Below, piece after piece: positions 3,275 through 61,841 of a stretch of DNA of 64,000 nucleotides. The first letter of the stretch is position 1, and each line of letters opens with the position of its first letter. A program made the position numbers and the translations under genes. Under the pieces are notes generated by a model. That model searched no databases. It worked only from the letters and a program-made list of their open reading frames with translations, and was not told where the DNA came from. The stretch covers positions 15,876,131-15,940,130 of the forward strand of contig NC_088644.1 of the NCBI RefSeq assembly GCF_964019385.1. The letters are read 5' to 3'. Source of the stretch: Sycon ciliatum. Lineage: Eukaryota > Porifera > Calcarea > Leucosolenida > Sycettidae.

Positions 3275-4087
3275 TTAAACCGGCTGATCCCTGATGCCTT
3301 GGATGTTGGATTCAAGCTGGGCCACCTGGAAATTAATTCCAGCGTTCTTCTTGATCGCATTATCCTGGGCATCCCATTTCTTCACGATGGCCAAGAAGGA
3401 GTCAGAGGCCGTCAGGAATGCGTCCTTGGTATCCTGGAGAGCATCCTCGATCTTTCCGATATTCTTCGTGGACTTGGAGACACTGCCAACTTTCAATAGG
3501 GGGCCTCGAATGGCTGAAAGAAACTCAGCGACCTTGGCATTCATTTCAGCACTGAAGAGATAACCAATATTGACTTCCACTCCGTCATCCAACTTCTTCG
3601 TCTCCGTCAGCTTTCCATCCTTGATGGCCTTGGCGATTTGGTCATTCCACGTCTTCATGTTGTTTTGTGCGTCTTGAAGAGCCTGGTTAAGCTTTTTGAG
3701 AAGTTTCTTTATTCTGTCCCCGGCTTGTGACGATTCAACAACGTTGATGACGCTTTTGATAAGTGTCTTAGCAAAGTCCACTATAGCAATAGAACGAATC
3801 ACCTGCCTAAAAATTGCATTTGAACCCGCGGGAACCACGCCTTCAATAGCAGCGTCGATCGCCCCCCTGGCTGCTGCTTCTCCCGCCGCTTCAGCAGCAG
3901 CTATGGCTGCTGCTCCTTCTACTGCTGCACCTGCAGCTGCATTAGCAGCCGCTTCCGCTGCATCAGCAGCCGCTTTCACTGCTGCTTCTGCTACAGCCGC
4001 TCCTGCAACCTCAGCTGCTGCTACAGCAGCGGCCTCAGCAGCAGCCTCAGCTGCAATCTCACCAGCAATACCAACGACAATACCCAT
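3275..4087 (-). CDS. Ala-rich NMKTWN-family protein, paralog 1
   Basis: Intronless 270-aa protein of a family I do not recognise, present seven times in this window. The frame stays open upstream of 4087, but the first real ATG is at 4087 (MGIVVGIAGEIA), in a good context (A at -3, G at +4). Residues 1-85 are an Ala/Glu-rich, probably helical segment. A middle segment (about 90-140) has alternating hydrophobic residues. The C-terminal 125 residues hold the family block NMKTWNDQIAKAIKDGKL, then YLFSAEMNAKV, KDAFL.AS..FLAIVKKWD and QLESNI. The MG start fits the loose N-myristoylation pattern. There is no signal peptide or metal-binding motif. The closest relative is paralog 6 at 41977, which also shares its promoter. 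The function is unknown; I infer an all-helical, possibly membrane-associated protein. Confidence 0.8.
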   Translation of the reverse strand: MGIVVGIAGEIAAEAAAEAAAVAAAEVAGAAVAEAAVKAAADAAEAAANAAAGAAVEGAAAIAAAEAAGEAAARGAIDAAIEGVVPAGSNAIFRQVIRSIAIVDFAKTLIKSVINVVESSQAGDRIKKLLKKLNQALQDAQNNMKTWNDQIAKAIKDGKLTETKKLDDGVEVNIGYLFSAEMNAKVAEFLSAIRGPLLKVGSVSKSTKNIGKIEDALQDTKDAFLTASDSFLAIVKKWDAQDNAIKKNAGINFQVAQLESNIQGIRDQPV

Positions 4088-4165
4088 ACTGGCGAGAAGA
4101 ACTTTGTGTAGGTTCAAGAAGTAAAATAAGTCAAAACCAACGATGTGTGCTTTAGCATTGGACGC

Positions 4166-7179: not shown

Positions 7180-7446
7180 CTACGTCGTACAAATGAAACA
7201 AATTCAAGAAAGGTAATAAACACCTATGAAAATGATAATATCCTTATATTCCTAGCACTATGGTGATAAAGAGGTTGGTGCGCTTCGGCGATACTTGGGG
7301 AATTGTGTGTTGCTCCGGACGTGGGAGCTTGCGCTATTCCTGCTGACTTGAATTCTCACTTGACTGACTCACGACTGCCATCGAGAGCACAGGATAAGTC
7401 CATCGAACCGTGCACGCGGAAAACCTGCACGAAAGCACCACTCCCT

Positions 7447-7495
7447 GCTCAATACGCAGTGTTTCGGGGAATTCACAACCGCTCATCAGTTGAGC
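7447..7495 (-). ncRNA. Hammerhead ribozyme, type 2, partly decayed
   Basis: Minus-strand architecture is a type I hammerhead: stem I GCUCAA/UUGAGC (6 bp), core CUGAUGA, stem II closed by a GCGG/CCCC pairing with one C-C mismatch, GAA, stem III ACAC-U-GCGU with one mismatch, then A at the cleavage position. The copy at 13647-13695 has better stems. The differences fall in stems II and III, so activity here is doubtful. Confidence 0.65.
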
Positions 7496-7734
7496 TTGAG
7501 TAGGCTGAGGAAGTTTGTGCCTGAAGAGCACGACTTACAATAATAATAGTGCTCTCCAGGCAAAAACATCACCAGGGATACAAATTTACAGAGACGCTCC
7601 GTGTCCAGCGCGACAAACTCCTCGTGAACACCAGATAGCAGCGTGAGTCAGTGTCGCTCATGGAGGTGCTGAACAAACGCTGAGGACCGTTGGCCATTCA
7701 CAACGTTGTTGCCTCCAAACCATCTTATTCGCAA

Positions 7735-7814
7735 GCCCGCGCCGGCGTGAAGAAGAGGTTGGTGTGTCGAAGTCGCACGAACCTCCTATTCACGTTGTTG
7801 TCCCCGGCGCGGGC
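7735..7814. other. Conserved GC-rich hairpin
   Basis: The 11-bp arms GCCCGCGCCGG and CCGGCGCGGGC enclose further pairing (CGTGAA/TTCACG and GAGGTT/AACCTC). The same hairpin occurs at 13928-14007, where the inner stem is perfect. It is probably a structured part of the hammerhead-bearing repeat. Confidence 0.6.
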
Positions 7815-8124
7815 TGGCAGGTGTGAGTCAGTCAAATGAGAATTCAAGTCGGCAGGAATAGCGCAAGCTCACACGTACGGAGCAACACACAATTCACTTA
7901 GGTGATAAGAGGAAAAACTGCCGAAGCAGCATCTAAGCGATATGTTGTGCAACAGTATAGTTTTGTTGACGTATAGTTCTTTTAGACGCTTTCGCAGTTT
8001 CTCCTGTTTTTAATATCACCTTAGTCCTAGGATATTATCTTTTTCATAGGTGTTTATTGAACTTTATTCTCACATCATTCCTCCTTATTAGTACCTTTCT
8101 TGAATATTTTTCATTAGTACAACA

Positions 8125-8295
8125 CAGCTTCCTGAGGAGTTATTATTGTTATTATTCTCAATTCATGGATGACATGGTGTCAACCAATATTATGAATGAG
8201 GGCTACCAGCCATGGAATAAAAGAACAAGAAGGCAAAAATGCACACGCAAAATATGGCAAGTTAAATGAAAATGTTGTGCGAAAACTAGTTCGAA
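8125..8295 (+). ncRNA. Hammerhead type 3 split by an insertion
   Basis: The 5' part (CTTC-CTGAGGAG, to about 8140) and the 3' part (GTTGTGC-GAAAAC-TAGTTC-GAAG, from 8274) match the intact motif at 14315-14350. About 133 bp of AT-rich sequence separates them. The ribozyme is disrupted in this copy. Confidence 0.55.
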
Positions 8296-8519
8296 GAATT
8301 GTTTTTTTCTTTTGAACGGATTGGGAGAACTTCAAATACTAAGGATCAGTTGGAATTGTTTTTTCATTGATAGTTATAATTTTGTTTTTCTTCGGCATTC
8401 AATTTCCGCTTCGTTAATACATTTCATCGCACATATAAAATTCAAATTTGGATTGAGGTTTTGGAAACCTTTCTCTTGGTCTCAGCTCAGACGACACTTT
8501 CAATTTTCCTAACGCCAAG

Positions 8520-9217
8520 AATATAATTATAAGCTCCTATTTACATTGTACTCTTGCTAATGCTTGTAATTGTACAAAACATTAAACATGCCTCTAGCGT
8601 GGAGTAGAGTCTAGCCTATTGACCCAAAGATGTTTGTACACATTCTGTGTACATGTACATGTACATGTATGTTGTAAGCAATCATGAAAAGAGTGAAGGT
8701 TGGGGGGGGGGGCTGTAAGTGCACAGCACCGATCTACATGTTCAGCTTAATGCCCGGCAAAAAACAATGTTCTCTTTACAGCGGATTTTTAATGTTCCTC
8801 TTGAGCAATTGGAATCGTGTCCGCCGTACAGGAGCGTCGTTATAACAGGGATGCAACAGCAAGCAACAAGGGGAGCACATATTAGATACCTGTAGGCAAA
8901 GAATGGCCTTGAATCTAAGGCTGATAGCCATAGATAAGAATAAAAAAAATTTTTTTCACGGTTCGCGTGAGACTCGGCCAAAGGCCCAGTTTTCCGCATC
9001 CGCAGGAACGCCACCACCCTCTTGGATCAAGAATAAGATAAGAATAAGAAAGCTATCAATTTAGAAAAAACATTGTTCACAAGCTCACGAAGTAACTGAC
9101 ACAAATGAACAGCCACACAAAAGAAGCACACACACGCAATTTCAATGAGAGTTGCTACAATCGGAATTAGTGAAATCACAATCAGTTGTTGTGGTAAATG
9201 TAGAAGGGGAGGTTTTC
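8520..9217. other. 3' flank of paralog 2, duplicated at 16.0-16.66 kb
   Basis: No gene. It contains ACATGTACATGT runs, a G run (8702-8711) and a piece (8957-9035) related to 40741-40825 (CACGGTTCGCGTGAGACTCGG). Confidence 0.6.
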
Positions 9218-10087
9218 TTATACGCTATGGCTCCTCACGTTGTTGATATTGGCCTCCAATTGGGGGATATGGAAATCCACGCCTGCTGCCGACTTGATAT
9301 CCGTGTCCAAACTATCCCAAACCTTGACGGCTGCCAGGAAAGTTTCGGATGCAGGTAAAAATGCATCCTTGGCGGCATTAGCTGCATCCTTGATCTTGCC
9401 TATATCCTTGGTCCTCCCAGCCACAACCACGTTCACCATGTGTGGCTTGACCGCATCCATGAAGGCTTGGATTTTAGTGTTCAACTCGACGCTGTATACA
9501 TTGCCCTCGTACAGCTCAACGCCGTCTGCAAGTTTAACGAGTTTCTGCAACTTTCCATCCTTGATTGCTTGCGTAATCTGATCATTCCATGTCTTCATGT
9601 TGTTGCTGACGTCATCCATGGCTGTGTGCAGAGCTTCTAATAGCGCCTTGATTTTATCGCCCTCCAGGAGCAAGTTGCCGATCTCAATTGCCTTCTCCAG
9701 AAGAGGTGGCATAAATGCAGTGGTGATATAAGCCCTCGCTGCCGCCTTGACGAAGTCTGCTGCTCCTGGTCCCAGCGTCTCTCCAACTGTTGCATCGATG
9801 GCATGATCGATAAGGCCTTCGCCAGCGTCGACAGTCACCGCTAGTTGCTCAACCGCCGTCTTGGCGGCGGCTTCACCGGCTGATGCAGCCTTTTTGCTAG
9901 CTGTAGAGAGCGCAGAAGCTGAAGCCTTTGCGGCTTCTGTTACCCCCTTCACTACAGCTTCTCCAGCTCTCTCTATGGCCTTGCCCGTATCTTCTCCGGC
10001 TTTCGTTATGCCTTTTCCGGCGTCTTCTCCAGCCCTTGCTATTCCTTTGCCAGCATCCTCAAACACCTTTCCTGGGGAATTTCCCAT
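9218..10087 (-). CDS. Ala-rich NMKTWN-family protein, paralog 2
   Basis: Intronless 289-aa member of the family. The first ATG is at 10087, giving MGNSPGKVFEDAGKG; the upstream open codons start only at TTG. Residues 10-55 are 11-residue repeats of the type AGKGI-x-x-AGED, recalling the amphipathic 11-mers of LEA-3 and synuclein-like proteins (resemblance only). An Ala/Ser-rich stretch follows, then a helix region with a single central hydrophobic patch (about 105-140). The conserved C-terminal domain contains NMKTWNDQITQAIKDGKL, YSVELNTKI, KDAFLPASETFLAAVKVWD and QLEANI. The last 220 or so residues are almost identical to paralog 3, while the 11-mer region differs. Function is unknown. Membrane- or lipid-surface association is my inference from the repeats and the Met-Gly start. 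Confidence 0.82.
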   Translation of the reverse strand: MGNSPGKVFEDAGKGIARAGEDAGKGITKAGEDTGKAIERAGEAVVKGVTEAAKASASALSTASKKAASAGEAAAKTAVEQLAVTVDAGEGLIDHAIDATVGETLGPGAADFVKAAARAYITTAFMPPLLEKAIEIGNLLLEGDKIKALLEALHTAMDDVSNNMKTWNDQITQAIKDGKLQKLVKLADGVELYEGNVYSVELNTKIQAFMDAVKPHMVNVVVAGRTKDIGKIKDAANAAKDAFLPASETFLAAVKVWDSLDTDIKSAAGVDFHIPQLEANINNVRSHSV

Positions 10088-10250
10088 TGTGGTACGCGCT
10101 AGAAAGAGCGTGGTTTTCAACACACTCTGAATACAGGCGACCAGCCTTAGCCTAACAGATATAACTAACTGTTACTTGCAAGCTCGCTCTTACGACTGAG
10201 GCTAAATTCGAATACAAGGAGGTGCAGTGATACTGAGCGGGACGTGCCAG

Positions 10251-13359: not shown

Positions 13360-13646
13360 CTACGTCGTACTAATGAAAAAATTCAAGAAAGGTACTATTA
13401 AAGAGAAATGAAGGGTGAATAAACACCTATGAAAAAGATAATAATTATCCTTATATTCCTAGCACTAAGGAGGTTGGTACGTCTTCGGCGATACTTGGGG
13501 AATTGTGTGTTGCTCCGTACGTGGGAGCTTGCCCTATTCCTGCCGACTTGAATTCTCACTTGGCTGACTCACGACTGCCATCTAGAGCACAGGATAAGTC
13601 CATCGAACCGTACACTCAGAAAACCTGCAAGAAAGCACCACTCCCT

Positions 13647-13695
13647 GCTCAATACACAGTGTTTCAGGGAATTCACCACCCCTCATCAGTTGAGC
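13647..13695 (-). ncRNA. Hammerhead ribozyme, type 2, intact-looking
   Basis: A 49-nt type I hammerhead on the minus strand: stem I GCUCAA/UUGAGC, core CUGAUGA, stem II GGGG/CCCU around a 9-nt loop, GAA, stem III ACA-CUG-UGU, and A17 after GU, giving cleavage before UUGAGC. All core residues are present. Short stem III is typical of retrozyme and Penelope hammerheads. Confidence 0.8.
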
Positions 13696-13927
13696 TTGAG
13701 TAGGCTGAGGAAGGTTGTGCCTGAAGAGCACCACTTATATATTGCTCTCCAGGCACAAACATCACCAGGAATACAAATTTACAGAGACGCTCCGTGTCCA
13801 GCGCGACAAACACCTCGTGAGCACCAGAAAGCAGCGTGAGTCAGTGTCACTCGTGGAGGTGCTGAACAAACGCTGAGGACCGTTGGCCATTCACAACGTT
13901 GTTGCCTCCAAACAATCTTATTCGCAA

Positions 13928-14007
13928 GCCCGCGCCGGCGTGAAGAAGAGGTTGGTGTGTCGAAGTTGCCCCAACCTCTTATTCACGTTGTTGTCCCCGG
14001 CGCGGGC
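13928..14007. other. Conserved GC-rich hairpin, second copy
   Basis: Arms GCCCGCGCCGG/CCGGCGCGGGC plus inner AAGAGGTTGG/CCAACCTCTT. Counterpart of 7735-7814. Confidence 0.6.
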
Positions 14008-14314
14008 TGGCAGGCGTGAGTCAGTCAAATGAGAATTCAAGTCGGCAGGAATAGCGCAAGCTCCCACGTACGGAGCAACACACAATTCATTAAGGTGATA
14101 GAGGAAAACTCCGGAAGCAGCATCTAAGCGATATGTTGTGCAACGGTATAGTTTTGTTGACGTATAGAGTTCTTTTAGAGGCTTTCGCATTTTTTCTGTT
14201 ATCACCTTAGTGCTAGGATATTATCTTTTTTCATAGGTGTTTATTGAACTTTATTCTCACATCATTCCTCCTTATTAGTACCTTTCTTGAATATTTTTCA
14301 TTAGTACAACACAG

Positions 14315-14350
14315 CTTCCTGAGGAGTGTTGTGCGAAAACTAGTTCGAAG
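14315..14350 (+). ncRNA. Hammerhead ribozyme, type 3
   Basis: Plus strand: stem I CUUC/GAAG, core CUGAGGA (N7 = G), stem II GUG-UUG-UGC (one G-C and two G-U pairs), GAA, stem III AAC/GUU closed by UA (a full palindrome AACUAGUU), then C17. The core is complete. The weak stem II and 4-bp stem I reduce confidence in activity. Confidence 0.6.
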
Positions 14351-14443
14351 TATTGTTGTGCATTCGTAGTTATACTGTAAAATAGCAATGAAAAATATCA
14401 ATTGTGCACTCATAACCATGTATAAACAATTAAAATGAAACAA

Positions 14444-14479
14444 TTCCAGAACGTGTTCGTGTGACCATCATCAGTGGAA
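14444..14479 (-). ncRNA. Hammerhead-like motif, left arm of 14.4-kb palindrome
   Basis: Stem I UUCCA/UGGAA, intact core CUGAUGA, UGGUCACAC in the stem II position (pairs poorly), GAA, then CACGUU and C17. Position 15.1 is C, which breaks the A15.1-U16.1 pair. Confidence 0.35.
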
Positions 14480-14669
14480 CATCGTCACATAGTAAGAATC
14501 ACTAAAACAACCAGTTATATAGCTAGAGTAATATGAAAAGAAGCGTGAGAATGCAGCACAGCTAGCGGTTATGCATAACGCGTGTAGTGTGAACCTATAT
14601 ATTCATATATATTCATATTACTCTAGCTATATAACTGGTTGTTTTAGTGATTCTTACTATGTGACGATG

Positions 14670-14705
14670 TTCCACAGATGATGGTCACACGAAAACCTTC
14701 TGGAA
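14670..14705 (+). ncRNA. Hammerhead-like motif, right arm of 14.4-kb palindrome
   Basis: Stem I UUCCA/UGGAA and stem III AA-CC-UU are good, but the core is CAGAUGA (U4 to A). The two arms carry different single defects, as expected from decay of an intact ancestor. Confidence 0.35.
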
Positions 14706-14947
14706 TTGTTTCATTTTAATTGTTTATACATGGTTATGAGTGCACAATTGATATTTTTCATTGCTATTTTACGACTGTTGTCTCCTCGTCGGTTATTTAG
14801 TTTTACTGTAATTTTTGTTTTTCTTCAGCATTCAATTTCCGCTTAATACATTGCATCGCACATATAAAATTCAATTTTGGATTGAGGTTTTGGAAACCTT
14901 TCTCTTGGTCTCAGCTCAGACGACACTTTCAATCTTCCTAACGCCAA

Positions 14948-15085
14948 TAAAATTTGCTCACTAGATTCACCATCACCTGTCCCTCCCATGCTTCTCCGTC
15001 TTGACCATTACTTTTCTTCTTTTATTCACCATGGTTGGTTAACACCCACATCTCCCGTACTGGCTGATTTTCTTTTCATGCCATG
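14948..15085 (+). mobile_element. LINE 3' UTR fragment, left part
   Basis: Reverse-complement match to 56257-56410, the 3' UTR of the LINE at 56.4 kb (blocks TTGACCATTACTTTTCTTC and GGTTAACACCCACATCTCCC). It resumes at 16009-16041 with the (ATA)n tail after the ribozyme element. Confidence 0.8.
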
Positions 15086-15329
15086 GGGTTGATAACTATG
15101 GTGGTAAAGACACACCTGGCAATATGGCGGTAAACACACGCCTGCCCACACACGCTCTCTAACGTTAGGCTGCAAAGTTCTGGCACAGAGCTCTCCTTCT
15201 CACCACCACCACCACCATCAGTTCGCGCCTGGCGCCTGGTCGATGCATGGCTGGCGGTATCCGGCATAGCAGGCTGGTACATCAAGTAGCGCATGGCACA
15301 TAGATGATGATACAGCAACGACATAGCTC

Positions 15330-15373
15330 GATTGCGACGTACGCTTCGTCCCCGCTGGACTCATCAGGCAATC
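15330..15373 (-). ncRNA. Hammerhead ribozyme, type 1, minus copy
   Basis: Same as 15699-15742 except that position 15.1 is G (GAAG instead of GAAA), leaving a G-U wobble with U16.1. Stem I, core CUGAUGA, stem II and GUC cleavage triplet are intact. Activity may be reduced. Confidence 0.75.
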
Positions 15374-15698
15374 TTCTTCTTGGATGTCTTCATACGGAGC
15401 TTGACTCGGGAGCTGTACTTATGGTTGATAAATATGGTGGTAAAGACACACCTGGCAATATGGCGGTAAACACACGCCTGCCCACACACATGCTCTCTAG
15501 GCTGCAACGTTCTGGCACAGAGCTCTCCTTCTCACCACCACCACCTTCAGTTCGCGCCTGGCGCCTGATCGATGCATGGCTGGCGATATTTCCAGGTGTG
15601 TCTTTACCACCTTATTTATCAACCATAAGTACAGCTGCAGTGGTGTCTTCAACTTCATTCTCCCGAGTCAAGCTCCGTATGAAGACATCCAAGAAGAA

Positions 15699-15742
15699 GA
15701 TTGCCTGATGAGTCCAGCGGGGACGAAACGTACGTCGCAATC
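15699..15742 (+). ncRNA. Hammerhead ribozyme, type 1, canonical
   Basis: A 44-nt type I hammerhead: stem I GAUUGC/GCAAUC, core CUGAUGA, stem II GUCC/GGAC with loop AGCGG, GAA, stem III AC/GU closed by palindromic GUAC, and the preferred GUC triplet. Predicted cleavage is between 15736 and 15737. The self-complementary stem III (ACGUACGU) would allow a dimeric hammerhead. Confidence 0.93.
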
Positions 15743-16008
15743 GAGCTATGTCGTTGCTGTGTCATCATCTATGTGCCATGCGCTACTTGATGTACCAGCC
15801 TGCTATGCCGGATACCGCCAGCCATGCATCGACCAGGCGCCAGGCGCGAACTGATGGTGGTGGTGGTGGTGAGAAGGAGAGCTCTGTGCCAGAACTTTGC
15901 AGCCTAGAGAGCGTGTGTGGACAGGCGTGTGTTCACTGCCATATTGCCAGGTGTGTCTTTACCACCATATTTATCACCCATAAGTACAGCTGCAGTGGTG
16001 TCTTCAAC

Positions 16009-16041
16009 TTCATGCCATGAGGTGTTGTGTATAATAATAAT
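16009..16041 (+). mobile_element. LINE 3' UTR fragment, right part with (ATA)n tail
   Basis: Continues the LINE 3' end interrupted at 15085 (ATGAGGTGTTGTGTATAATAATA). The matching place in segmental copy 1 has no such tail, so the LINE fragment arrived after, or was lost from, one copy. Confidence 0.7.
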
Positions 16042-16665
16042 AAGAATGTAAGCACCCATTTACATTGTACTCTTGTTAATGCTTGTTATTGTACAAAAAT
16101 GCCTCTAGGGTGGAGTACAGTCTAGTCTATTCACCCTAAGATGTTTGTACAGTAACATATTTCATGTACATGTATGTTGTATGTTGCAAGCAATCATGAA
16201 AAGAGTGAAGGTGGGGGGGGGGGGGGGGGGGGGCTGTAAGTGCACAGCACCGATCTACATGTTCAGCTTAATTAATGCCCGTCAAAAAACAATGTTCTCT
16301 TTACAGCGGATATTTAATGTTCCTCTTGAGCAATTGGAATCGTGTCCGCCAGGTACAGGAGCGTCGTTATAACAGGGATGCAACAGCAAGCAACAAGGGG
16401 AGCACATATTGGATACCTGTAGGCAAAGAATGGCCCTGAATCTAAGGCTGATAGCCATAGATAAGAATAAGAAAGCTATCAATTTAGAAAAAAACATTGT
16501 TCTCAAGCTCACGAAGTAACGGACACAAATGAACAGCCACACAAAAGAAGCACACACACAAATCCTTCGGATGGCACACACACGCAATTTCAATAAGAGT
16601 TGCTACAATCGGAATTAGTGAAATCACAATCAGTTGTTGTGGTAAATGTAGAAGGGGAGGTTTTC
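16042..16665. other. 3' flank of paralog 3, with 21-nt G run
   Basis: Duplicate of 8.52-9.2 kb. The G run near 16213-16233 is longer than its counterpart. No gene is recognised. Confidence 0.6.
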
Positions 16666-17535
16666 TTATACGCTATGGCTCCTCACGTTGTTGATATTGG
16701 CCTCCAATTGGGGGATATGGAAATCCACGCCTGCTGCCGACTTGATATCCGTGTCCAAACTATCCCAAACCTTGACGGCTGCCAGGAAAGTTTCGGATGC
16801 AGGTAAAAATGCATCCTTGGCGGCATTAGCTGCATCCTTGATCTTGCCTATATCCTTGGTCCTCCCAGCCACAACCACGTTCACCATGTGTGGCTTGACC
16901 GCATCCATGAAGGCTTGGATTTTAGTGTTCAACTCGACGCTGTATACATTGCCCTCGTACAGCTCAACGCCGTCTGCAAGTTTAACGAGTTTCTGCAACT
17001 TTCCATCCTTGATTGCTTGCGTAATCTGATCATTCCATGTCTTCATGTTGTTGCTGACGTCATCCATGGCTGTGTGCAGAGCTTCTAATAGCGCCTTGAT
17101 TTTATCGCCCTCCAGGAGCAAGTTGCCGATCTCAATTGCCTTCTCCAGTAGAGGTGGCATAAATGCAGTGGTGATATAAGCCTTCGCTGCCGCCTTGACG
17201 AAGTCTGCTGCTCCTGGTCCCAGCGTCTCTCCTACTGTTGCATCGATGGCATGATCGATAAGGCCTTCGCCAGCATCGGCAGTAACGGCTAGTTGCTCAA
17301 CCGCCGTCTTGGCGGCGGCTTTACCGGCTGATTCAGCCTTTTTGCTAGCTGTAGAGAGCGCAGAAGCTGAAGCCTTCGCGGCTTCTGTTACCCCCTTCCC
17401 TATAGCTTCTCCAGCTTTCTCTATGGCCTTGCCCGTCTCCTCTCCGGCTTTCTTTACGCCTTTTCCGACGTCTTCTCCAGCCTTTGCTATTCCTTTGCCA
17501 GCATCCTCAAACACCTTTCCTGGGGAATTTCCCAT
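16666..17535 (-). CDS. Ala-rich NMKTWN-family protein, paralog 3
   Basis: Intronless 289-aa near-duplicate of paralog 2. It starts MGNSPGKVFEDAGKG at the only ATG near the 5' end (17535). Four imperfect 11-residue repeats (AGEDVGKGVKK, AGEETGKAIEK and similar) form the N-terminal region. The C-terminal domain with NMKTWNDQITQAIKDGKL and QLEANINNVRSHSV is the same as in paralog 2. From about residue 85 I see only an Arg/Lys change, whereas residues 15-80 contain a dozen or so changes, several exchanging Arg, Ile or Val. This is uneven divergence between fresh duplicates. It belongs to segmental copy 2. Its function is not known. Confidence 0.82.
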   Translation of the reverse strand: MGNSPGKVFEDAGKGIAKAGEDVGKGVKKAGEETGKAIEKAGEAIGKGVTEAAKASASALSTASKKAESAGKAAAKTAVEQLAVTADAGEGLIDHAIDATVGETLGPGAADFVKAAAKAYITTAFMPPLLEKAIEIGNLLLEGDKIKALLEALHTAMDDVSNNMKTWNDQITQAIKDGKLQKLVKLADGVELYEGNVYSVELNTKIQAFMDAVKPHMVNVVVAGRTKDIGKIKDAANAAKDAFLPASETFLAAVKVWDSLDTDIKSAAGVDFHIPQLEANINNVRSHSV

Positions 17536-17710
17536 TGTGGTACGCGTTAGAAAGAACGTGGTTTTCAACACACTTTGAATACAGGCGACCAGCCTTAGGC
17601 GGTCCGCAAACAGATATAACTAACTGTTACTTGCAAGCTCGCTCTTACGACTGAGGCTAGATTCGGACACAAGGAGGTGCAGTGATACTGAGCGGGACGT
17701 GCCCGCACAT

Positions 17711-19197: not shown

Positions 19198-20043
19198 TCA
19201 ACAGCTTCGACTCTTGATGGCCTTGATATTTGCCTCTAGCTGGGCAACTTGAAAATCCACACCAGCTTCAGACTTGATCTCTGTGTCCTTGTTGTCCCAC
19301 GTTTTAACAGTGGAGAGAAAAGCTTCCGATGCCTCCAAGAATGCATCCTTCGCCTTTCTGAGAGCCTCCTCAATTTTGCGACTATTGGTATTTGTCTTTT
19401 TCGCCACACCTGCCAAGTTAATCATCGATGGCTGAATCGCAGCCAGAAATCCTTCCACCGCCTTGTTCATTTCAGCACTGAAAGCAACCCCCTCGGAGCA
19501 ACTGCTGCCATCAGGTAGCGTACACAACTTTCTGAGTTTTCCAGTCTTGATGGCCGCCGTGGTCTGTTCATTCCATGTTTTCATATTTGCCTTGGCGTCT
19601 CTAATGGCGCTCTGCAGAAGCGACAGCATCGGTCGGGTTCCTTCTTTAGTACGATGCAAGCCGTCGACAACAACAATGGTATCACTAAGTAACTCCTCGA
19701 TCATAGACACAGCAATCATGGCCTTCAACACTTTCCTGACCATTACAGTGGCATCGGTTTGGCTTTCGCCTGCTGTCTCTGTACCAGCCGTTGCTTGTAG
19801 AACAGCCTTCTGCCCAGCGTGCTGGCCTGATTTTGCAGCCGTCTTCGCAGCCATCTTGGCCACCATCCTACCAGCCTGCTCTGCAGATCCCTCTATCTGA
19901 TCTAGCGCAGTGGACATGGTCGTCATGTCTCTGGCTTCTGAAGGACAATCCGAGGCAGCACTTGCAGCTGTACTGGTGCTCACTGATGTCTCGTCCTGAA
20001 CTGCACTGGCCGCGAAAGGAACTGTGTGCCTTTCTTGCTCCAT
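19198..20043 (-). CDS. Divergent NMKTWN-family protein, paralog 4
   Basis: Intronless 281-aa member and the most divergent one. It starts at a true ATG (20043) with MEQERHTVPF, so it lacks the Met-Gly start and the long Ala/Glu helix. The first 100 residues are Ser/Thr/Ala-rich, then AEQAGRMVAKMAAKTAAKSG. The C-terminal domain is clearly the family type: NMKTWNEQTTAAIKTGKL, FSAEMNKAV, KDAFLEASEAFLSTVKTWD and QLEANIKAIKSRSC. It carries extra Cys residues (LCTLPDGSSCSEG and the terminal Cys) not seen in the relatives. No clear TATA box lies upstream. A replaced N-terminus suggests a different location or partner; this is inference. Confidence 0.75.
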   Translation of the reverse strand: MEQERHTVPFAASAVQDETSVSTSTAASAASDCPSEARDMTTMSTALDQIEGSAEQAGRMVAKMAAKTAAKSGQHAGQKAVLQATAGTETAGESQTDATVMVRKVLKAMIAVSMIEELLSDTIVVVDGLHRTKEGTRPMLSLLQSAIRDAKANMKTWNEQTTAAIKTGKLRKLCTLPDGSSCSEGVAFSAEMNKAVEGFLAAIQPSMINLAGVAKKTNTNSRKIEEALRKAKDAFLEASEAFLSTVKTWDNKDTEIKSEAGVDFQVAQLEANIKAIKSRSC

Positions 20044-36144: not shown

Positions 36145-37135
36145 GTATTTTCATTTGCGTCTTACTCAATCTGCGGACAGCATACTGTTCCGTTCTTTGT
36201 AAACTCATCAACGTAGCACAGAGAAAACGCGACCGTTTTCATGTTATTATGTTGATTTTACATGAAACATTTTTTGCTTTATGTGAAACAGAACTTTCGT
36301 GCACCGCCCTCCTGGATCCTGTAAGAAGACCAATGCCGCAATGGTCTGCAGGAGACATCAAGATAAAGGAAGAGAGGTTGGTTACGTTGATTTTGAGTGC
36401 TTCCTAACTTCCTGGGTAATTTCTGCTTCCCATGTTTTGAACAGAATCCACATGACTGTATCATTCGTGCAAAACATATACTTTTACTGTGTTTATACCA
36501 ACCCGCTTGACTTTTAAAATTGCTGTTCCTCCTTCTTTTCTTCGTTTTCTTTCTTTGTACTCTTGTAAACTTTCTTGAGCATAATTATGCAATTCTTTTG
36601 AGTAACAGGCCTAGAGTCTCAGGGTTATCCTTAAAACACACTAAATAAGAGAATAACAAAAAAATACATTGTAAGCCTGTCCCAGTCCCAGTTCAGTACA
36701 GAACCGTCGATTGCATGATTTGAAAAGCGCATTCACCCGATGATTGAGTACACCTTACTGTCTGTCACATGATGTGGTGCACCCTATTGAGAGACAGTAC
36801 ACAGTACACAGTCACAACCTGGACAAGTGAAGAGCTGGATGGAAGGTTTGTTCAGTACGGAATAAAAACATCCGTACAGATCGTGGGTAAACGAACGAAA
36901 GTTTCAAAATCAGCAACCATAGGCATAGAGCATTGAGCATGAAAACAGTAAGGCATTTAGAATTTTAGTAGAGAGAAGGCCATTGCTATACACGAAGGCA
37001 TTTAATATGGAGGACAGAAGACAAACCGGTGATGACTTGACTAAAGAAAACTGGAGAAACTAAGCTATTAGCGAAGGATACAAATTTTGAACAGACATAA
37101 AGTCATTCAAGGTGCAAGTTGACGTATAGGATGAC
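36145..37135. other. No gene recognised
   Basis: AT-rich spacer downstream of paralog 5; short frames without family resemblance. Confidence 0.4.
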
Positions 37136-38017
37136 TCAAACTTCCTGCGATTTGACAGCCGAGATATCTGCCTCCAATTGGGAACGGTGAAAGTTAACAC
37201 CAGCTTCAGACTTGATCTCCGTGTCCTTTCTATCCCACTTCTTCACAGTAGAGTGGAAGGTGTCCGCTGCTTTCACGAATTCGTGCTTAGCTGACTGGAC
37301 GGCTTTCTGGATCTTTCCTAGGTCTTTGGTCTTGGCAACGCCGGCTATCCTGATGATGGATGGCTGGAAGCTCGACAAGAACTCATCCACTTTAGAGTTC
37401 ATCTCCATACTGAACACCTTGCCCTCATAAAGCTTGTCACCATCAGGCAGTTTCTCCCACTTTCTCAGTTTTCCTTTTTGGATTGCTTTGTTGATCTGCT
37501 CATTCCAGGTCTTAATGTTTGTCTTCGTATGCTTCGTGGCCGTATGAAGAAGGTCCAGAATTTTCTTGATTCTCTCCTTGGCTTGAAGAGTGTCAACTAT
37601 CTTGATAGTGTTGCGAATGAGCTCTTCAACCATCGAGACTCGGATCATCGTCTTGATTACTTTCTTGACAATTTCCGTGGCTCCCTTCTGCGCCGTCTTC
37701 TCGGCTGCTTCCTCAACTGCTTTGTCCGCCGCCATTTCACCGGCTTCAGCACCGTCTTCAGCTGCTATGTCGGCTACAGTCGCGGCTGCTGTCTCTCCAG
37801 CTGCCGCTGCTGGGCCCTCAGCTGCAGCTGCGGCGGCGGCGTCCGCTGCTGCGTCTGCTCCTGCCGCTGCGGCTGCATCAGCAGCAGCCTGTGCCGCAGC
37901 TGCAGCCGCAGCAGTCGCGGCCTCACCGGCTGCCTCAGCCGCAGCAGCCGCACTAGCTGCTGCAGCTGTGGCTGCTTCGATAGCAATTTCCGCAGCAATT
38001 CCAATGATGATACCCAT
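37136..38017 (-). CDS. Ala-rich NMKTWN-family protein, paralog 5
   Basis: Intronless 293-aa member. The first ATG is at 38017 (MGIIIGIAAEIAIEAA). Residues 12-105 are one long Ala-rich stretch with spaced Glu, Asp and Gly, expected to be helical, and then EEAAEKTAQKG. A hydrophobic segment (VKKVIKTMIRVSMVEELI, about 115-140) leads into NTIKIVDTLQAKERIK, shared with paralog 7. In the C-terminal domain the signature is KTWNEQINKAIQKGKL, with FSMEMNSKV, KHEFVKAADTFHSTVKKWD and HRSQLEADISAVKSQEV. GC-rich codons dominate the Ala tract. The function is unknown. Confidence 0.8.
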   Translation of the reverse strand: MGIIIGIAAEIAIEAATAAAASAAAAAEAAGEAATAAAAAAAQAAADAAAAAGADAAADAAAAAAAEGPAAAAGETAAATVADIAAEDGAEAGEMAADKAVEEAAEKTAQKGATEIVKKVIKTMIRVSMVEELIRNTIKIVDTLQAKERIKKILDLLHTATKHTKTNIKTWNEQINKAIQKGKLRKWEKLPDGDKLYEGKVFSMEMNSKVDEFLSSFQPSIIRIAGVAKTKDLGKIQKAVQSAKHEFVKAADTFHSTVKKWDRKDTEIKSEAGVNFHRSQLEADISAVKSQEV

Positions 38018-38107
38018 TTTCGGGAAGACTGACGATACTTGCAAACTGTAATTTTATTGTTCACGTTGGAAATGTTGAGGAAATTGATTCTAGTGACTGT
38101 TTCCAAC

Positions 38108-41895: not shown

Positions 41896-41976
41896 TCATC
41901 CAATGATAGGCAGACATCCTTGGTTTTGAGTTATTTTACTTCTTGAAACTACAACGTGAAAGTTTTTCTCGCCAAT

Positions 41977-42777
41977 ATGGGTATTGTTGTTGGTGTTGCT
42001 GGTGAGGTTGCAGCTGATGCTGCTGCTGAGGCCGCTACTGAAGCAGCAGCTGAGGCTGCAGGAGAGGCTGCAGCCGAAGCAGCAGGGGAAGCGGCTGCTG
42101 ATGCAGCTGCAGAGGCAGCAGCAGAAGGAGCAGATGACGCAGCAGACGAAGCTGCTGTCGAAGCGGCGGGAGAAGCATCAGCCGAGGGAGCGGTCGAAGC
42201 TGCTGTTGAAAAAGCAGTTCCCGCGGGTTCGAGTCAAATTTTCAGGGAGGTGGTTCGTGCTGTCGTTATCGTCAGCTTGGTCAAGACAGCCATCACAGCC
42301 ACCATTAAAATTGTTAAAGCTTTACTAGCAAAGGATACAATACAGAAACTGCTCGAGAAGCTTCACAAGGCTCTTCAAGACGCTCAAAACAACATGAAGA
42401 CGTGGAATGACCAAATCGCCAAGGCCATCAAGGATGGAAAGCTGACGGAGATGAGGAAGTTGGAGGACGAGGTGGAAATGACTATAGGTTATCTCTTCAG
42501 TGCTGAAATGAATGCCAAGGTCACTGCCTTCCTCTCAGCTGTTCAAGGTCCCGTTTTGAATGTTAGCAGTGTCGCCAAGTCCTCGAAGAACATCGAAAAG
42601 ATCGAGGATGCTCTTGGGAAGGCCAAGGATGCATTCCTGAAGGCCTCTGACCCTTTCTTGGCCATCGTGAAGAAATGGGATGCCAAGGATAATGCGATCA
42701 AGAAGGAAGCTGGAGTTGATTTCCAGGTGGCCCAGCTTGAAGCCAACATTAAAGCCGTCAGGGACCAACCGGTTTAA
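41977..42777 (+). CDS. Ala-rich NMKTWN-family protein, paralog 6
   Basis: Intronless 266-aa member and the only one on the plus strand. The first ATG is at 41977 (MGIVVGVAGEVAADAAAEA); the frame upstream starts only at GTG. The N-terminal 85 residues are Ala/Glu-rich. A hydrophobic helix (VVRAVVIVSLVKTAI) follows at about 95-115. The C-terminal domain has NMKTWNDQIAKAIKDGKL, YLFSAEMNAKV, KDAFLKASDPFLAIVKKWD and QLEANIKAVRDQPV. It is the closest relative of paralog 1, including the promoter. The gene is divergent from paralog 5, and its upstream flank shares sequence with that gene's upstream flank. Function is unknown. Confidence 0.82.
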   Translation: MGIVVGVAGEVAADAAAEAATEAAAEAAGEAAAEAAGEAAADAAAEAAAEGADDAADEAAVEAAGEASAEGAVEAAVEKAVPAGSSQIFREVVRAVVIVSLVKTAITATIKIVKALLAKDTIQKLLEKLHKALQDAQNNMKTWNDQIAKAIKDGKLTEMRKLEDEVEMTIGYLFSAEMNAKVTAFLSAVQGPVLNVSSVAKSSKNIEKIEDALGKAKDAFLKASDPFLAIVKKWDAKDNAIKKEAGVDFQVAQLEANIKAVRDQPV

Positions 42778-47790: not shown

Positions 47791-48619
47791 AGCGTAGCGC
47801 CCTGAGCTTCCAAGCTCTCTCGTCATGAAACACAAATTGATGATACACTGTAGGTTGAAGATTGATACACATTCCTTGAGAACTGTAAAGCCTAGTTCAC
47901 ATTCAACGCAACGCTGATGGTACGGGACGTAAGGGCCTGTGCGGACGGCTGGGGTGAGCTGTAAAATCTTGTACGATTCGTACGACGCGATGTGCTGCAG
48001 TCGTTGCTTTATCACATATCAGGTGATGGTTTCCATGGATTGAACCAATCAGAGGCCTTCGTAGGCGGGTGATATAGGCCGATATCACCCCGCCTAGCCC
48101 ATATCACCCCTGCTGCTCTATATCACCCCTGCTGCGTACACCGTACGCATATACTCGAAAGCGTACTATAAATGCACTCCATATTTAGCACTTGATTGTT
48201 CCTGCTAGGCCCTACGCTACAGGCCCTACTGCCGCGCCTACCCCCCCCCCCCGCCCCTTTGGCCTTGCTGGCGAAAGCGGTGGGGGGGGGGGGGGGGTCT
48301 ACCAGGTAGGCTCAGTAGAGCCTGAAACATAGGGCTAGAAGGAGCAATCAAAATGCTAAATATGGAATGCAATATAGTACACTTTAGAGGAATTGGAATT
48401 TATACTAAAAGTTAGTAAACAAGAATTCCGAGAATAGTACGCCTAAGTTGCAGGAAATACAACATGACCAAGGAAAACACTTACCAAGAATGGAGTCATT
48501 GATTCCGTTCCTAGAACAATGAGCCAAGGACCCTCATGGTTTGTGCACACGTACACAGAAAGCACAAATACTTGACAATACTTCTGGGTCTGGTCACTTT
48601 CGGTATTCTTACCAGTAAG
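47791..48619. other. Spacer left of the Crypton-like gene
   Basis: No gene. Contains ATATCACCCC(T/G)GC repeats at 48068-48130 and opposing C and G runs (48240-48251 and 48282-48297) inside a GGCCCTAC...GTAGG-type inverted segment. Confidence 0.45.
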
Positions 48620-50077
48620 ATGGCTAGCTTTGACTTGGGTGCAAGTGATATTGACTTGGAAGATGCAGAAGTTTTGGATGCCGCTTCCAACTACTTCAAC
48701 TTTTTATCTACAGATGAAATAGCCAACATGTCAGGATTCTCTTTATCATCTACAGCAACTGCGACGTTAGCAACTGGTGAGGTGGTGGAAAAGACCACTA
48801 CTGAAAAGCGCGTTTCGTCAGAACAGCACAGCAGTGAAGAAAGAGTTAAGCGATTTGTGCAAGTGTCTGAGTCAGATCTGGATAGGATACGTGAAAGTCG
48901 TGTTCCCGCAAACACCAAACGAGCTACTAAGAACTGGATGCGTGTTTTTGACACTTGGTGTGTGGAGAACAAGAAAACGTGCGACTTGAAAACAATACAA
49001 GCGACTGATCTAGCATCTATCCTGAAGCATGCCTATGTTGAAATCCGTCAAGTCAACAAACAGCCGTATTCTAAGAACAGCTTACTGCAGTTTCGGAGTG
49101 CCATTCACCGTGAACTGCAAGAGCTGAAGCGCACCATCAATCTCTATACTGATAGTGAGTTTATCGAGGCTAACCAAGTACTTGATGGCTACCTAAAGCA
49201 GTTAAAGAAAGACGGCCTGGTAGCACCAACGCAGCACAAGCCTCCCATCTCCGATAGCGACAAAGAAAAGATCTACAAGCACCTCGGTGACTGGAAGACA
49301 AATGCGGATCACCTCACCTACCTTGTCTGGTTCGTCATCACTTACCACTTCTGTCTGCGTGGTTCGGAGATTCAGGCGTATCTAACATCCGACGACCTGG
49401 ATGTGAAGACCAACGACAAAGGCAAAAGATACATCACATTAGCCACAGCATTCGCCCAGAAGAACCAGCAAGGCGGCATTAAAGGAAAGGACACGGTGTC
49501 TGATGGGATGATAGTGTCCGACTGGCAGGTGGAAGCCGTCCTACTCCTCACTTCAAAGTTGTCTGTGAAGTCCAAGCGACTCTTTCAGATACCACGCAAA
49601 CATTACCAGCCAGAGGATGCAGAATGGTACACAGGCCAAGTGTTTGGTAAAAACAAAATCGATGGCATGATGAAGAAGATGAGCGAAACAGCGCGACTAA
49701 GCCAGATCTACACCAACCACAGTGTGCGCGCCACCGCCATTACGACCTTGGCTAAGCAAAATGTGAGTGCCACTACAATCATGCGTACTTCCGGCCATCG
49801 GAATGCCCAAAGCCTAGACTCGTACTTGCAGCCAAGCGAGCATGACAAGATGAAAACTGCTCACCTGTTGGACGTAGACGCCATTGATGAAGCACTGCAG
49901 TGTGCGACTCCGGAGGAACTGCAGGCCTTGGAAGAGCCTCAGGCACCTCCCCCGTCAGCTTCTGTCACTACCAGTTCATCCACGGTGACGTCGGAGAATA
50001 GCGCAAAATTCATATTCTCTGGCAACTTCAGTGGTGCCGTTCACATACATGTGAACGATGTGAAGGAACTGCGCTGA
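48620..50077 (+). CDS. Crypton/KIAA1958-like tyrosine recombinase
   Basis: Uninterrupted 485-aa frame from ATG 48620 (MASFDLGASDIDLED); 28 more codons upstream are open but look non-coding. An acidic N-terminus and a Ser/Thr-rich linker lead to a SAM-like core-binding region (TKRATKNWMRVFDTWC...SLLQFRSAIHRELQ). The catalytic domain follows: box I Arg in HFCLRGSEIQAYL, HxxR in TNHSVRATAITTLAKQ, GHR in MRTSGHRNAQSL, and Tyr in LDSYLQP. The R, H-x-x-R, H and Y residues are therefore all present. The tail FSGNFSGAVHIHVND resembles those of animal KIAA1958/ZMYM-type (DUF3504) relatives. It would cut and rejoin DNA. It could be an intact Crypton transposon gene or a domesticated copy. Confidence 0.85.
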   Translation: MASFDLGASDIDLEDAEVLDAASNYFNFLSTDEIANMSGFSLSSTATATLATGEVVEKTTTEKRVSSEQHSSEERVKRFVQVSESDLDRIRESRVPANTKRATKNWMRVFDTWCVENKKTCDLKTIQATDLASILKHAYVEIRQVNKQPYSKNSLLQFRSAIHRELQELKRTINLYTDSEFIEANQVLDGYLKQLKKDGLVAPTQHKPPISDSDKEKIYKHLGDWKTNADHLTYLVWFVITYHFCLRGSEIQAYLTSDDLDVKTNDKGKRYITLATAFAQKNQQGGIKGKDTVSDGMIVSDWQVEAVLLLTSKLSVKSKRLFQIPRKHYQPEDAEWYTGQVFGKNKIDGMMKKMSETARLSQIYTNHSVRATAITTLAKQNVSATTIMRTSGHRNAQSLDSYLQPSEHDKMKTAHLLDVDAIDEALQCATPEELQALEEPQAPPPSASVTTSSSTVTSENSAKFIFSGNFSGAVHIHVNDVKELR

Positions 50078-55274: not shown

Positions 55275-55935
55275 GGTTCGAGTCCTGGTGGTGACAGTCA
55301 ATTTTTTCTTCAGACTTTTCCCGTTTGTCTCTTTCCCTCAAACTAGTGAAGATGTTATGACTTGGGGCTCCCCGCGTGCTAGAGTGTACGTGAAGTGTGT
55401 GGGTACAGTGAGGGCTGCGTCCCACCCGCCTGTGTGGATTCACAGGAAGTGTGAGTTACGAAGTCTGAAGAAAATGTTGAACAGTCTCTGCTGGGATGAC
55501 GACTACACCATAGCTCAGTGGTTAGAGCATCGCTAGCTACAAGCGAGGGTCCCTGGTTCAAGTCCTGGTGGTGACAGTCAATTTTTTCTTCAGACTTTTA
55601 CCGTTTGTCTCTTTCCCTCAAACTAGTGAAGATGTTATGACTTGGCCTTGGGGCTCCCCGCGTGCTAGAGTGTACGTGAAGTGTGTGGGTACAGTGAGGG
55701 CTGCGTCCCACCCGCCTGTGTGGATTCACAGGAAGTGTGAGTTACGAAGTCTGAAGAAAATGTTGAACAGTCTCTGCTGGGATGACGACTACACCATAGC
55801 TCAGTGGTTAGAGCATCGCTAGCTACAAGCGAGGGTCCCTGGTTCGAGTCCTGGTGGTGACAGTTAATTTTTTCTTCAGACTTTTCCCGTTTGTCTCTTT
55901 CCCTCAAACTAGTGAAGATTATTATTATTTGAACT
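55274..55935 (+). mobile_element. Tandem tRNA-derived SINE copies
   Basis: Two units of 280 and 286 bp. Each contains a tRNA-like head, with A-box TAGCTCAGTGGTTAGAG and B-box GGTTC(G/A)AGTCC (copies at 55503-55575 and 55789-55861), and a body with CAGACTTTT(C/A)CCGTTTGTC. The anticodon loop reads AGCTACA, so U33 is missing and a functional tRNA is unlikely. Fragments occur at 62460-62520. Confidence 0.75.
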
Positions 55936-56205: not shown

Positions 56206-56249
56206 TTGAAGTTCTCCCAATCCTTTCAAAAATTATAATAATTATTATT

Positions 56250-57408
56250 ATTATAGACAACACCTCATGGCACGAGAAGAAAATCAGCCAGTACGGGAGA
56301 TCTGGGTGTTAACCAACCATGGTGAATAAAAGAAGAAAAGAAGAAAAGTAATGGTCAAGACGGAGAAGCATGGGAGCGACAGGTGATGGTGAATCTAGTG
56401 AGCAGATTTAAATGCGTCCAGGGTACTGGCATTGCGCGTAGTAGCGGGTAGCGCAAGCCAAGCAGAGTAGGCAACAAAGAGTGGAGAGCGTACAAGGGAG
56501 GACGTTTTAGCCAAGGGGAGGGTAACAGAGCATCTTGTCTGGGAGCCATCTGTGATTCGGAACCAGTTATACACGCTAAGATGAGGAGGATGTAGAGCTA
56601 GTTTAAATTTCTGAGCAAAAGTGCAAATTAATTTTTGACGGTGGGTCGACAGTGGGCAAGCATTTGCAAGGACATACAGGGAAGCAGAAGAGTAGAGAGG
56701 GGGTAGACTAAACAGGATACGAAGAAGTTTTCTATGGTGGATTTCGAGACGCTCAGCGAGAACCGAGGACAAGCCACACCAACTAACAGCAGCGTACATC
56801 ACAAGAGGCAGGATGTACAGTTTGTAAAACAAAATTTTACATTTGACAGGAAGATGGAAACAATGGGGACGTATAACACCTTGGGCAGAGCTTGAACGGC
56901 TGCAAAGAGCATCAATATGGTAAGACCAAGAGAGACGATCATCAAGCATTATTCCCAGGTGTTTATGGTTGGAAACAACCTTTATGGGTTCTGGGAAATC
57001 AGGATGGTGTAAAAGTGACATGGATGAGATTGGGGGAAGGAACATTATTTCGGTTTTAGTCAGGTTGGGTCTAAGTCGCCATGTTTGCATCCAGCGTAGG
57101 ACACTGCATATCTGAGCCGACACTCGAGGTACAAGAGCCGCTGAGGACGAGGATGCTGACAGTAGGGTTGTATCATCAGCAAATAACGAGACACCTGGGT
57201 CTATAGAGGGTAAATCATTTACGTATGCTACGAACAAAAGAGGTCCAAGTATGGAGCCTTGGGGAACTCCAGAAGACACTGGTAGGGGGTCAGAGTTGAT
57301 GGAGAGGGCAGAAATAAACTGTGATCGGCTACTCAGATAGGACTCCAGCCAGGACAGAGCAGGGCCAGACACACCAAAGACAAGGAGCAAGGAGGCCACG
57401 ATGGTACG
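56250..57408 (-). pseudogene. 5'-truncated LINE reverse transcriptase (CR1/Jockey-like)
   Basis: The frame (stop at 56395) contains VFGVSGPALSWLESYLSSRS, SSGVPQGSILGPLLFVAYVN, FADDTTLLS, LNLTKTEIMF-like RPNLTKTEIMFLPP, HKHLGIMLDDRLSWSYHI, and the C-terminal SWCGLSSVLAERLEIHHRKL. The catalytic FADD is intact, and the frame is open across the preserved part. The 5' boundary is near 57408, where RT homology stops. The 3' UTR (56250-56394) ends in (ATA)n and is related to the fragment at 14948-16041. Confidence 0.88.
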
Positions 57409-57528
57409 GCATTGGCCGTCGATTTCCTGAACTGCGTAGACCTCTACAGGCCTATGAAGTATACGAGGGAGGGGGGGGGGGGGGTGCTGGACATCATAAT
57501 GCATAAACTTTCTGAGTCCTACATACAT

Positions 57529-61750: not shown

Positions 61751-61841
61751 GTTCTTTGTCAAAATGTAGAATGCACTATTCCTCTCAGATTGTGCGATGG
61801 GAACACAAAGTGAATAAGTGGTCGGAGTGGCGCATGCAAGT

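Follow-up and report, generated by a model that had tools for sequence, protein, structure and literature searches.

The window, that is, the whole 64,000-nucleotide stretch of Sycon ciliatum DNA analysed here, contains a palindromic retrozyme-like insert whose sampled relatives in the same genome are mostly built in the same way, with two arms placed head-to-head and the outer ends falling at two fixed sites of the copied RNA, A and B. Based on sequence comparison, we consider it likely, with a probability of about three in four, that such inserts arise from two-sided priming of reverse transcription on one circular RNA template.

The earlier note on this DNA had described a palindromic, retrozyme-like insertion flanked by a target-site duplication (TSD) of 11 bp, and this description is borne out by the hammerhead, the inverted repeats and the alignment to a sibling sequence in which the site is empty. 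The insert is composed as follows.

15086..16008, no strand: palindromic retrozyme insert of 923 bp, recognised by its inverted repeats, its TSD and the empty-site sibling
15075..15085, no strand: left copy of the 11-bp TSD, TTCATGCCATG, present as a single copy in the empty-site sibling
16009..16019, no strand: right copy of the TSD, TTCATGCCATG, from border comparison
15087..15589, minus strand: minus arm, 503 nt or 1.43 monomers, ending outward, on the RNA 3′ side, at site A (about 240 in the consensus)
15583..16008, plus strand: plus arm, about 1.2 monomers, ending outward, on the RNA 3′ side, at site B (about 269-274 in the consensus)
15583..15589, no strand: inversion joint, an imperfect 7-nt overlap of the arms at which the RNA 5′ sides meet, from alignment in monomer register

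When the 5 nt common to arm and TSD are counted, the plus arm extends to 16013 and measures 431 nt (1.22 monomers). The long inverted repeats consist of 247-nt arms (15166-15412 and 15660-15906) that are 99% complementary, which led us to reject a chance palindrome; two nested insertions were also rejected, given the single TSD pair and the A/B ends. An assembly hairpin artefact is disfavoured by the unique flanks with TSDs and by the empty-site sibling, the palindromes being known from one assembly. The monomer is 352 nt long by the family consensus and 355 nt in the plus arm of the window, instead of the approximately 335 nt first proposed, and the minus arm is without about 25 nt that the plus arm has. 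It had also been supposed that one strand carries a partial plus a full monomer and the other a single inverted monomer. In fact both arms exceed one monomer, and each has thus been copied past the ribozyme cut site. The tandem copies in the window diverge by about 5%, and the idea that they stem from different templates was rejected because, at the five variable sites comparable in four part-copies, every difference in the alignment is a singleton, as would be expected for one template followed by separate decay.

Each arm contains a hammerhead ribozyme.

15699..15742, plus strand: type I hammerhead of the plus arm, 35.4 bits with the Rfam model; cut site between 15736 and 15737, read from the sequence
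15330..15373, minus strand: weaker type I hammerhead of the minus arm, 31.4 bits with the Rfam model; cut site between 15336 and 15335, read from the sequence

In the Rfam covariance search of the window, the plus-arm ribozyme, already pointed out in the earlier note, scored above the type I gathering score of 34. The hammerhead announced in the opposite orientation is indeed present on the minus strand (E 1.4e-5 in a 1.1-kb search), where it falls below the gathering score and carries a single change within the conserved GAAA stretch. Folded as a circle, the 352-nt consensus (GC 52.8%) reached -101.4 kcal/mol versus a mean of -109.2 for shuffled sequences (z +1.5; 96/100 shuffles at least as stable), and the hammerhead stretch and the stretches around the start sites showed nothing unusual in their stability. 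Viral contigs searched with the hammerhead pattern gave no match, and a search of viral contigs for relatives of the LINE reverse transcriptase described below found none.

The insert interrupts a LINE fragment, for which the window also provides an uninterrupted sibling.

14950..16043, plus strand: LINE 3′ end fragment holding the insert (14950-15085 and 16009-16043), from alignment to the sibling
56242..56409, minus strand: sibling LINE 3′ end without the insert (empty site), from alignment over the joined flanks

The sibling aligns straight through the joined flanks, with one target copy and two substitutions, indicating that the retrozyme insertion was clean. An ORF that encodes a reverse-transcriptase domain (56395-57528, minus strand) ends just inside the sibling, which continues 3′ of it, so that the LINE 3′ UTR had been correctly named as the target. 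The window further contains a local duplication, 7300-10245 and 13500-17700, whose aligned pieces are about 87-95% identical. The LINE 3′ fragment with its retrozyme is found only in the second copy (13500-17700), which gives duplication, LINE and retrozyme as the order of events. Seven related ORFs of about 273-316 codons (3275-4117, 9218-10123, 16666-17571, 19198-20043, 37136-38044, 41956-42777 and 60812-61762) begin with alanine/glutamate-rich sequence and resemble one another in their C-terminal parts; the one at 16666-17571, the sole one of the seven compared with Pfam, had no match there. Two near-identical tRNA genes (55506-55573 and 55792-55859, plus strand) lie 286 bp apart, both above the Rfam cut-off. 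A 513-codon ORF (48536-50077, plus strand) gives weak matches, below the cut-off, to a QRICH1 domain and a phage-type integrase, and might possibly belong to a tyrosine-recombinase mobile element.

To place the insert among its relatives, the genome (538 million bases in 313 contigs) was searched with 331 nt of the plus arm, which gave at least 152 matches from the best 40 of 1239 candidates; the sampled copies, 40 candidates having been scored of the 1239, are those most similar to the query. The match rows were grouped by hand into 39 places (the window, L052-L071, L072-L081 and L082-L089), all of which were read, and leaving out L052, which is rearranged, and L075, a duplicate of L074, yields 37 independent loci. 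The insert of the window, at first taken for a singular integrant, turned out to have the usual build among the sampled loci, since 29/37 are head-to-head. Eight loci have a single orientation (L054, L065, L067, L071, L084, L086, L087 and L089), and tail-to-tail placement within one insert was seen in 0/37. An additional minus piece in L078, 38 bp past the plus end, was read and treated as a neighbour. LTR-like ends were seen in none of the 39 places. The family repeats a small, hammerhead-bearing monomer in many genomic copies (consensus from 67 full monomers). These copies run head-to-tail inside an arm, and the head-to-head build of whole inserts is a variant of this retrozyme arrangement. 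Arm content ranges from 0.13 to about 14 monomers, and 44/57 arms reach at least one circumference, a count that omits L052, L056, L075, L082, L085, L088 and the minus arm of L070. In the plus array of 14 monomers at 3003-7568 of L061, the variants recur every five monomers (1755 bp), which is probably due to a later tandem duplication. In several loci (e.g. 2119-2610 of L079), an open frame of about 165 codons in the monomer extends beyond a full circle, 352 not being a multiple of three.

Each outer end of the head-to-head inserts corresponds to a 3′ end of the RNA stretch that was copied, and RNA 3′ sequence facing outward at both ends implies that both target strands would have primed cDNA. 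Both ends are in view in 26 head-to-head loci, L082, L085 and L088 having been dropped as incomplete in the fetched stretch. In 24 of these 26, one end lies at site A (228-250) and the other at site B (273-288); the end of L057 at 228 was assigned to site A after reading of the sequence, and the B end of L056 was read across an apparent later nested insertion. The pairing has a chance probability of 5e-6 if ends are taken as independent and equal. B/B ends occur in 0/26 loci, and the two exceptions, L072 (A/A-like, 247/252) and L070 (260/278), are both without a TSD. The strand of site A varies, with A on the minus arm in 16 loci and on the plus arm in 8. After trimming of the TSD at the 20 loci where it is clear, simple-repeat targets being omitted, the A ends fall at 230-243 and the B ends at 269-281, with medians of 240 and 276.5. 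The sequences thus point to a fixed pair of starts separated by about 36 nt, a distance within the 30-40 nt spacing of a Penelope-type tail at one end. A Penelope-type start would be expected in an AC-rich stem-loop; in the predicted fold, site A coincides with the loop CAACC (236-240) of a hairpin, within a consensus fold that as a whole is no better than shuffles; this gives a hint that A and B may be positioned in hairpin loops.

The borders of the inserts were examined in 35 loci, namely the window and L053-L089, with L075 kept together with L074 (one duplicate) and with L082, L085 and L088 omitted. A word of at least 10 bp common to both sides was found at 25/35 loci versus 0.67% of 1190 mismatched pairs, the TSD being ambiguous at a few simple-repeat targets such as L059, L079 and L081. 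Thus, in most loci the palindrome would have been inserted as one event. Long inverted repeats with a TSD are also what a palindromic DNA unit, such as a foldback or inverted-repeat DNA transposon moving as such, would present, and we regard this explanation as extremely improbable: a moving unit would keep its joint, whereas joints, arm lengths and A/B orientations vary among loci, an identical joint with identical arm lengths occurs only in the duplicate pair L074/L075, and eight loci have one orientation only.

The joints also bear on the possibility that one cDNA folds back and serves as the template of an inverted second arm. At the joints, the arms overlap by at least 1 nt in 19/29 loci, abut in 5/29 and are separated by a gap of 1-22 nt in 5/29. 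On the monomer, the arms meet within 20 nt of each other in 6/29 loci (3.4 expected by chance), which is the configuration that a snap-back of the cDNA would produce. This process predicts symmetrical joints and equal outer ends, whereas the meeting points of the arms differ by more than 20 nt in 23/29 loci and the outer ends are of the A/B type in 24/26, and we therefore give it very little credit. The same two observations disfavour strand switching by the reverse transcriptase, one of the two explanations offered in the earlier note.

The other explanation offered there, the integration of two molecules derived from circular RNA, is better replaced by one template sequence. The arms of the 29 head-to-head loci share 25 non-consensus states, far above chance, since permutation gave a mean of 4.95 and a maximum of 15, with 0/20,000 permutations reaching 25. 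At least one shared state was found in 17/29 loci and none in 12/29, the window included; for the window copy itself, whose arms share no non-consensus variant, a single template would be an inference from its relatives. Among the 67 full monomers, the variants of a locus were found in every monomer of both arms in L079 (5/5; 2 minus, 3 plus), L061 (16/16) and L064 (9/9), and sharing within an arm extends to 6/6 full monomers in L076 and 8/8 in L089. Some of these variants (269C>T, 147G>A) recur at other loci, as subfamilies would. Near-identical monomers would also result if both strands were primed on a linear multimer transcribed from a genomic array, with no circle involved, and in vitro the Anolis Penelope protein acted chiefly on uncut RNA (PMC11167929; this and the other papers are cited from the portions of their text available to us). 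We consider such a linear template unlikely: variants common to both arms and to up to 16 monomers favour one small template, and a multimer with intact hammerheads should presumably cut itself at every copy.

According to the preferred reading, two-sided priming on one circle, the RNA of a non-LTR retrozyme would cut itself via its hammerhead and presumably close into a circle of about 352 nt. At a new site, the two DNA strands would be cut with a stagger of about 12 bp, and the 3′ ends thus released would each prime reverse transcription on a shared RNA circle in one event, one cDNA starting at A (about 240) and the other at B (about 277), about 36 nt downstream. Each cDNA would round the circle, for a fraction of a turn up to about 14 turns, and the two cDNA ends would be joined, often via a few common bases. 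Repair of the staggered cut would create the TSD, and the product would be a head-to-head palindromic array with the RNA 3′ ends outward. Given the fixed A/B starts, the many arms of at least one circumference and one haplotype per locus wherever this can be told, two-sided target-primed copying of one circle appears to be the simplest account. We counted in its favour the head-to-head majority, the border words, the A/B ends, the shared variants and the overlaps at the joints, as well as the published behaviour of Penelope protein and Penelope copies described below (PMC11167929, PMC3846280). We counted against it the single-orientation loci, L072 and L070 with their unpaired ends, and the 12 loci whose arms have no shared state. 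A further point against it is that at least 3 bases are common to target and RNA at 20/40 ends (the 20 clear-TSD loci), the start of the Anolis Penelope being described, in the text available, as non-homologous to the cut DNA (PMC11167929).

A different mode of two-sided priming is known from LINEs, in which copying from the first nick begins at one RNA site and the second target strand primes elsewhere by chance, leading to a 5′ inversion. Several observations would suit such twin priming, namely the TSD lengths of 8-14 bp, the presence of LINE reverse transcriptases in the window and in sampled loci, and, at half of the 40 ends, a short stretch of homology of the target with the RNA. In L1 twin priming the position of the second start is variable, and this expectation was not borne out, the second start lying at a fixed distance from the first, with the same site pair in 24/26 loci. 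A second retrozyme family of the genome speaks against it as well. It has a monomer of 226-228 bp (L001-L012 and L014-L021; e.g. 707-1349 of L003 and 928-1554 of L004), without detected similarity to the 352-nt family outside the ribozyme; its 3′ end keeps a constant position some 12 nt beyond the ribozyme cut, the extent of 5′ truncation varies, and several loci have TSDs. This fixed single 3′ end is what LINE-type movement would give, and both orientations are found in only 1/20 loci (L019) versus 29/37 head-to-head loci in the 352-nt family (Fisher P 8e-8), as a rough control in which the second family was sampled by Rfam score and the 352-nt family by DNA similarity, and in which many second-family loci are short. 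Two pairs among the 20 loci, L011/L012 and L017/L018, look like duplicates, and seven further multi-match places of the second family are all of one orientation by their position rows. We therefore hold LINE twin priming to be about as unlikely as the linear template. The locus L019 (1269-2070 and 2573-3043) is complex and has no clear TSD; one of its stretches is head-to-head, and flanking bases form part of an inverted repeat there. The window has its own relic of the second family, a decayed sequence at 36164-36235 (minus strand) that is 80.6% identical, across 72 nt, to the monomer's ribozyme end and stops at the usual 3′ end of that family.

Taken with two-sided priming on one circle, the arrangement of the inserts directs attention to the enzyme. 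No motif pointing to the enzyme that moves retrozymes is known according to the available part of PMC7761336. Penelope elements have been named as strong candidates (PMC7229834), and a circular RNA template together with a Penelope enzyme has been proposed for animal retrozymes on general grounds (PMC7229834). The head-to-head layout with two nearby starts corresponds to the published signature of Penelope-like elements, which is why a Penelope-type enzyme is suspected here. By this analogy, a Penelope-like reverse transcriptase-endonuclease is the leading candidate for the mobilising enzyme, and we somewhat favour it. In Adineta vaga, the pLTRs of Penelope are inverted and mostly head-to-head, with TSDs of 8-10 bp in the examples given and an optional 31-bp tail on one inverted pLTR, for which the authors favour self-priming (PMC3846280). 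Purified Anolis Penelope protein cuts and extends both strands, using two adjacent internal start sites whose interval equals the tail, with no difference of start between strands (PMC11167929). More tentatively, a two-subunit Penelope-type complex could perform a concerted two-ended integration, each subunit having its own strand and its own start on one circle and rolling until the cDNAs are joined. Palindromes would then be the normal product, and the same act would explain why Penelope elements have inverted ends and a tail on one side; we are more reserved about this model than about the type of enzyme.

An inverted palindromic retrozyme integrant, which was not known to the earlier note, was found nowhere in the literature searched, a body of text that most subscription papers lie outside. 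The terms "inverted", "head-to" and "opposite orientation" are absent from the main text of PMC7229834, supplements aside, and an inverted retrozyme insert was not found in the accessible text of PMC7761336, PMC6155905 and PMC4918200. The palindromes might be considered as a fossil record of the reaction, in which two start sites are fixed, both target strands prime and the arms are tied to one template sequence, and they make the enzyme and the circle directly testable.

The family described here shares several characteristics with the metazoan non-LTR retrozymes, i.e. a type I hammerhead, tandem monomers of 150-450 bp and an apparent lack of LTRs, as well as TSDs exceeding the 4 bp found in plant LTR retrozymes (15 bp in Nematostella, 11 bp here). 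Rolling-circle reverse transcription of a circular RNA has been proposed for them, as we propose it here, and the common 20-nt indel of Acropora retrozymes recalls the 25-nt difference between the arms of the window. In contrast, metazoan retrozymes have been described head-to-tail in the sections consulted, and the inserts presented here are mostly head-to-head palindromes with two fixed starts (PMC7229834, PMC4918200, PMC7761336). They are also reported, as far as the text available goes, to have a GC content below 50% and a highly stable, self-paired RNA, whereas the GC content here is 52.8% and the RNA is not unusually self-paired in silico. The W-elements of Schistosoma are likewise repetitive, transcribed elements that carry a type I hammerhead and internal inverted repeats, one example having a TSD (PMC8490949). 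Their inverted repeats, unlike those of the sponge, flank predicted small-RNA parts within the element, and head-to-head inserts of whole monomers are not described in the part of the paper available (PMC8490949). Twin-primed L1 inserts are described as inverted, truncated and TSD-flanked (PMC2837659). They resemble the palindromes in that both target strands prime on one RNA and leave an inverted joint with a TSD. The two differ in that here the second start is fixed and 44/57 arms are at least one template length long.

The Penelope-like elements are also a close parallel to the palindromes, with head-to-head inverted ends, TSDs, an optional tail of about 31 bp at one end, two adjacent starts, a hammerhead and tandem copies (PMC3846280, PMC11167929). 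These elements differ from the present family in being kilobases long and encoding a reverse transcriptase with a GIY-YIG endonuclease, whereas the retrozyme of about 352 nt is too small to code for them. Their hammerhead is described as a minimal form (PMC7761336), and the one found here is canonical by Rfam. Finally, two-sided priming offers a mechanism for the inverted ends of Penelope itself, which have hitherto been attributed to self-priming (PMC3846280).
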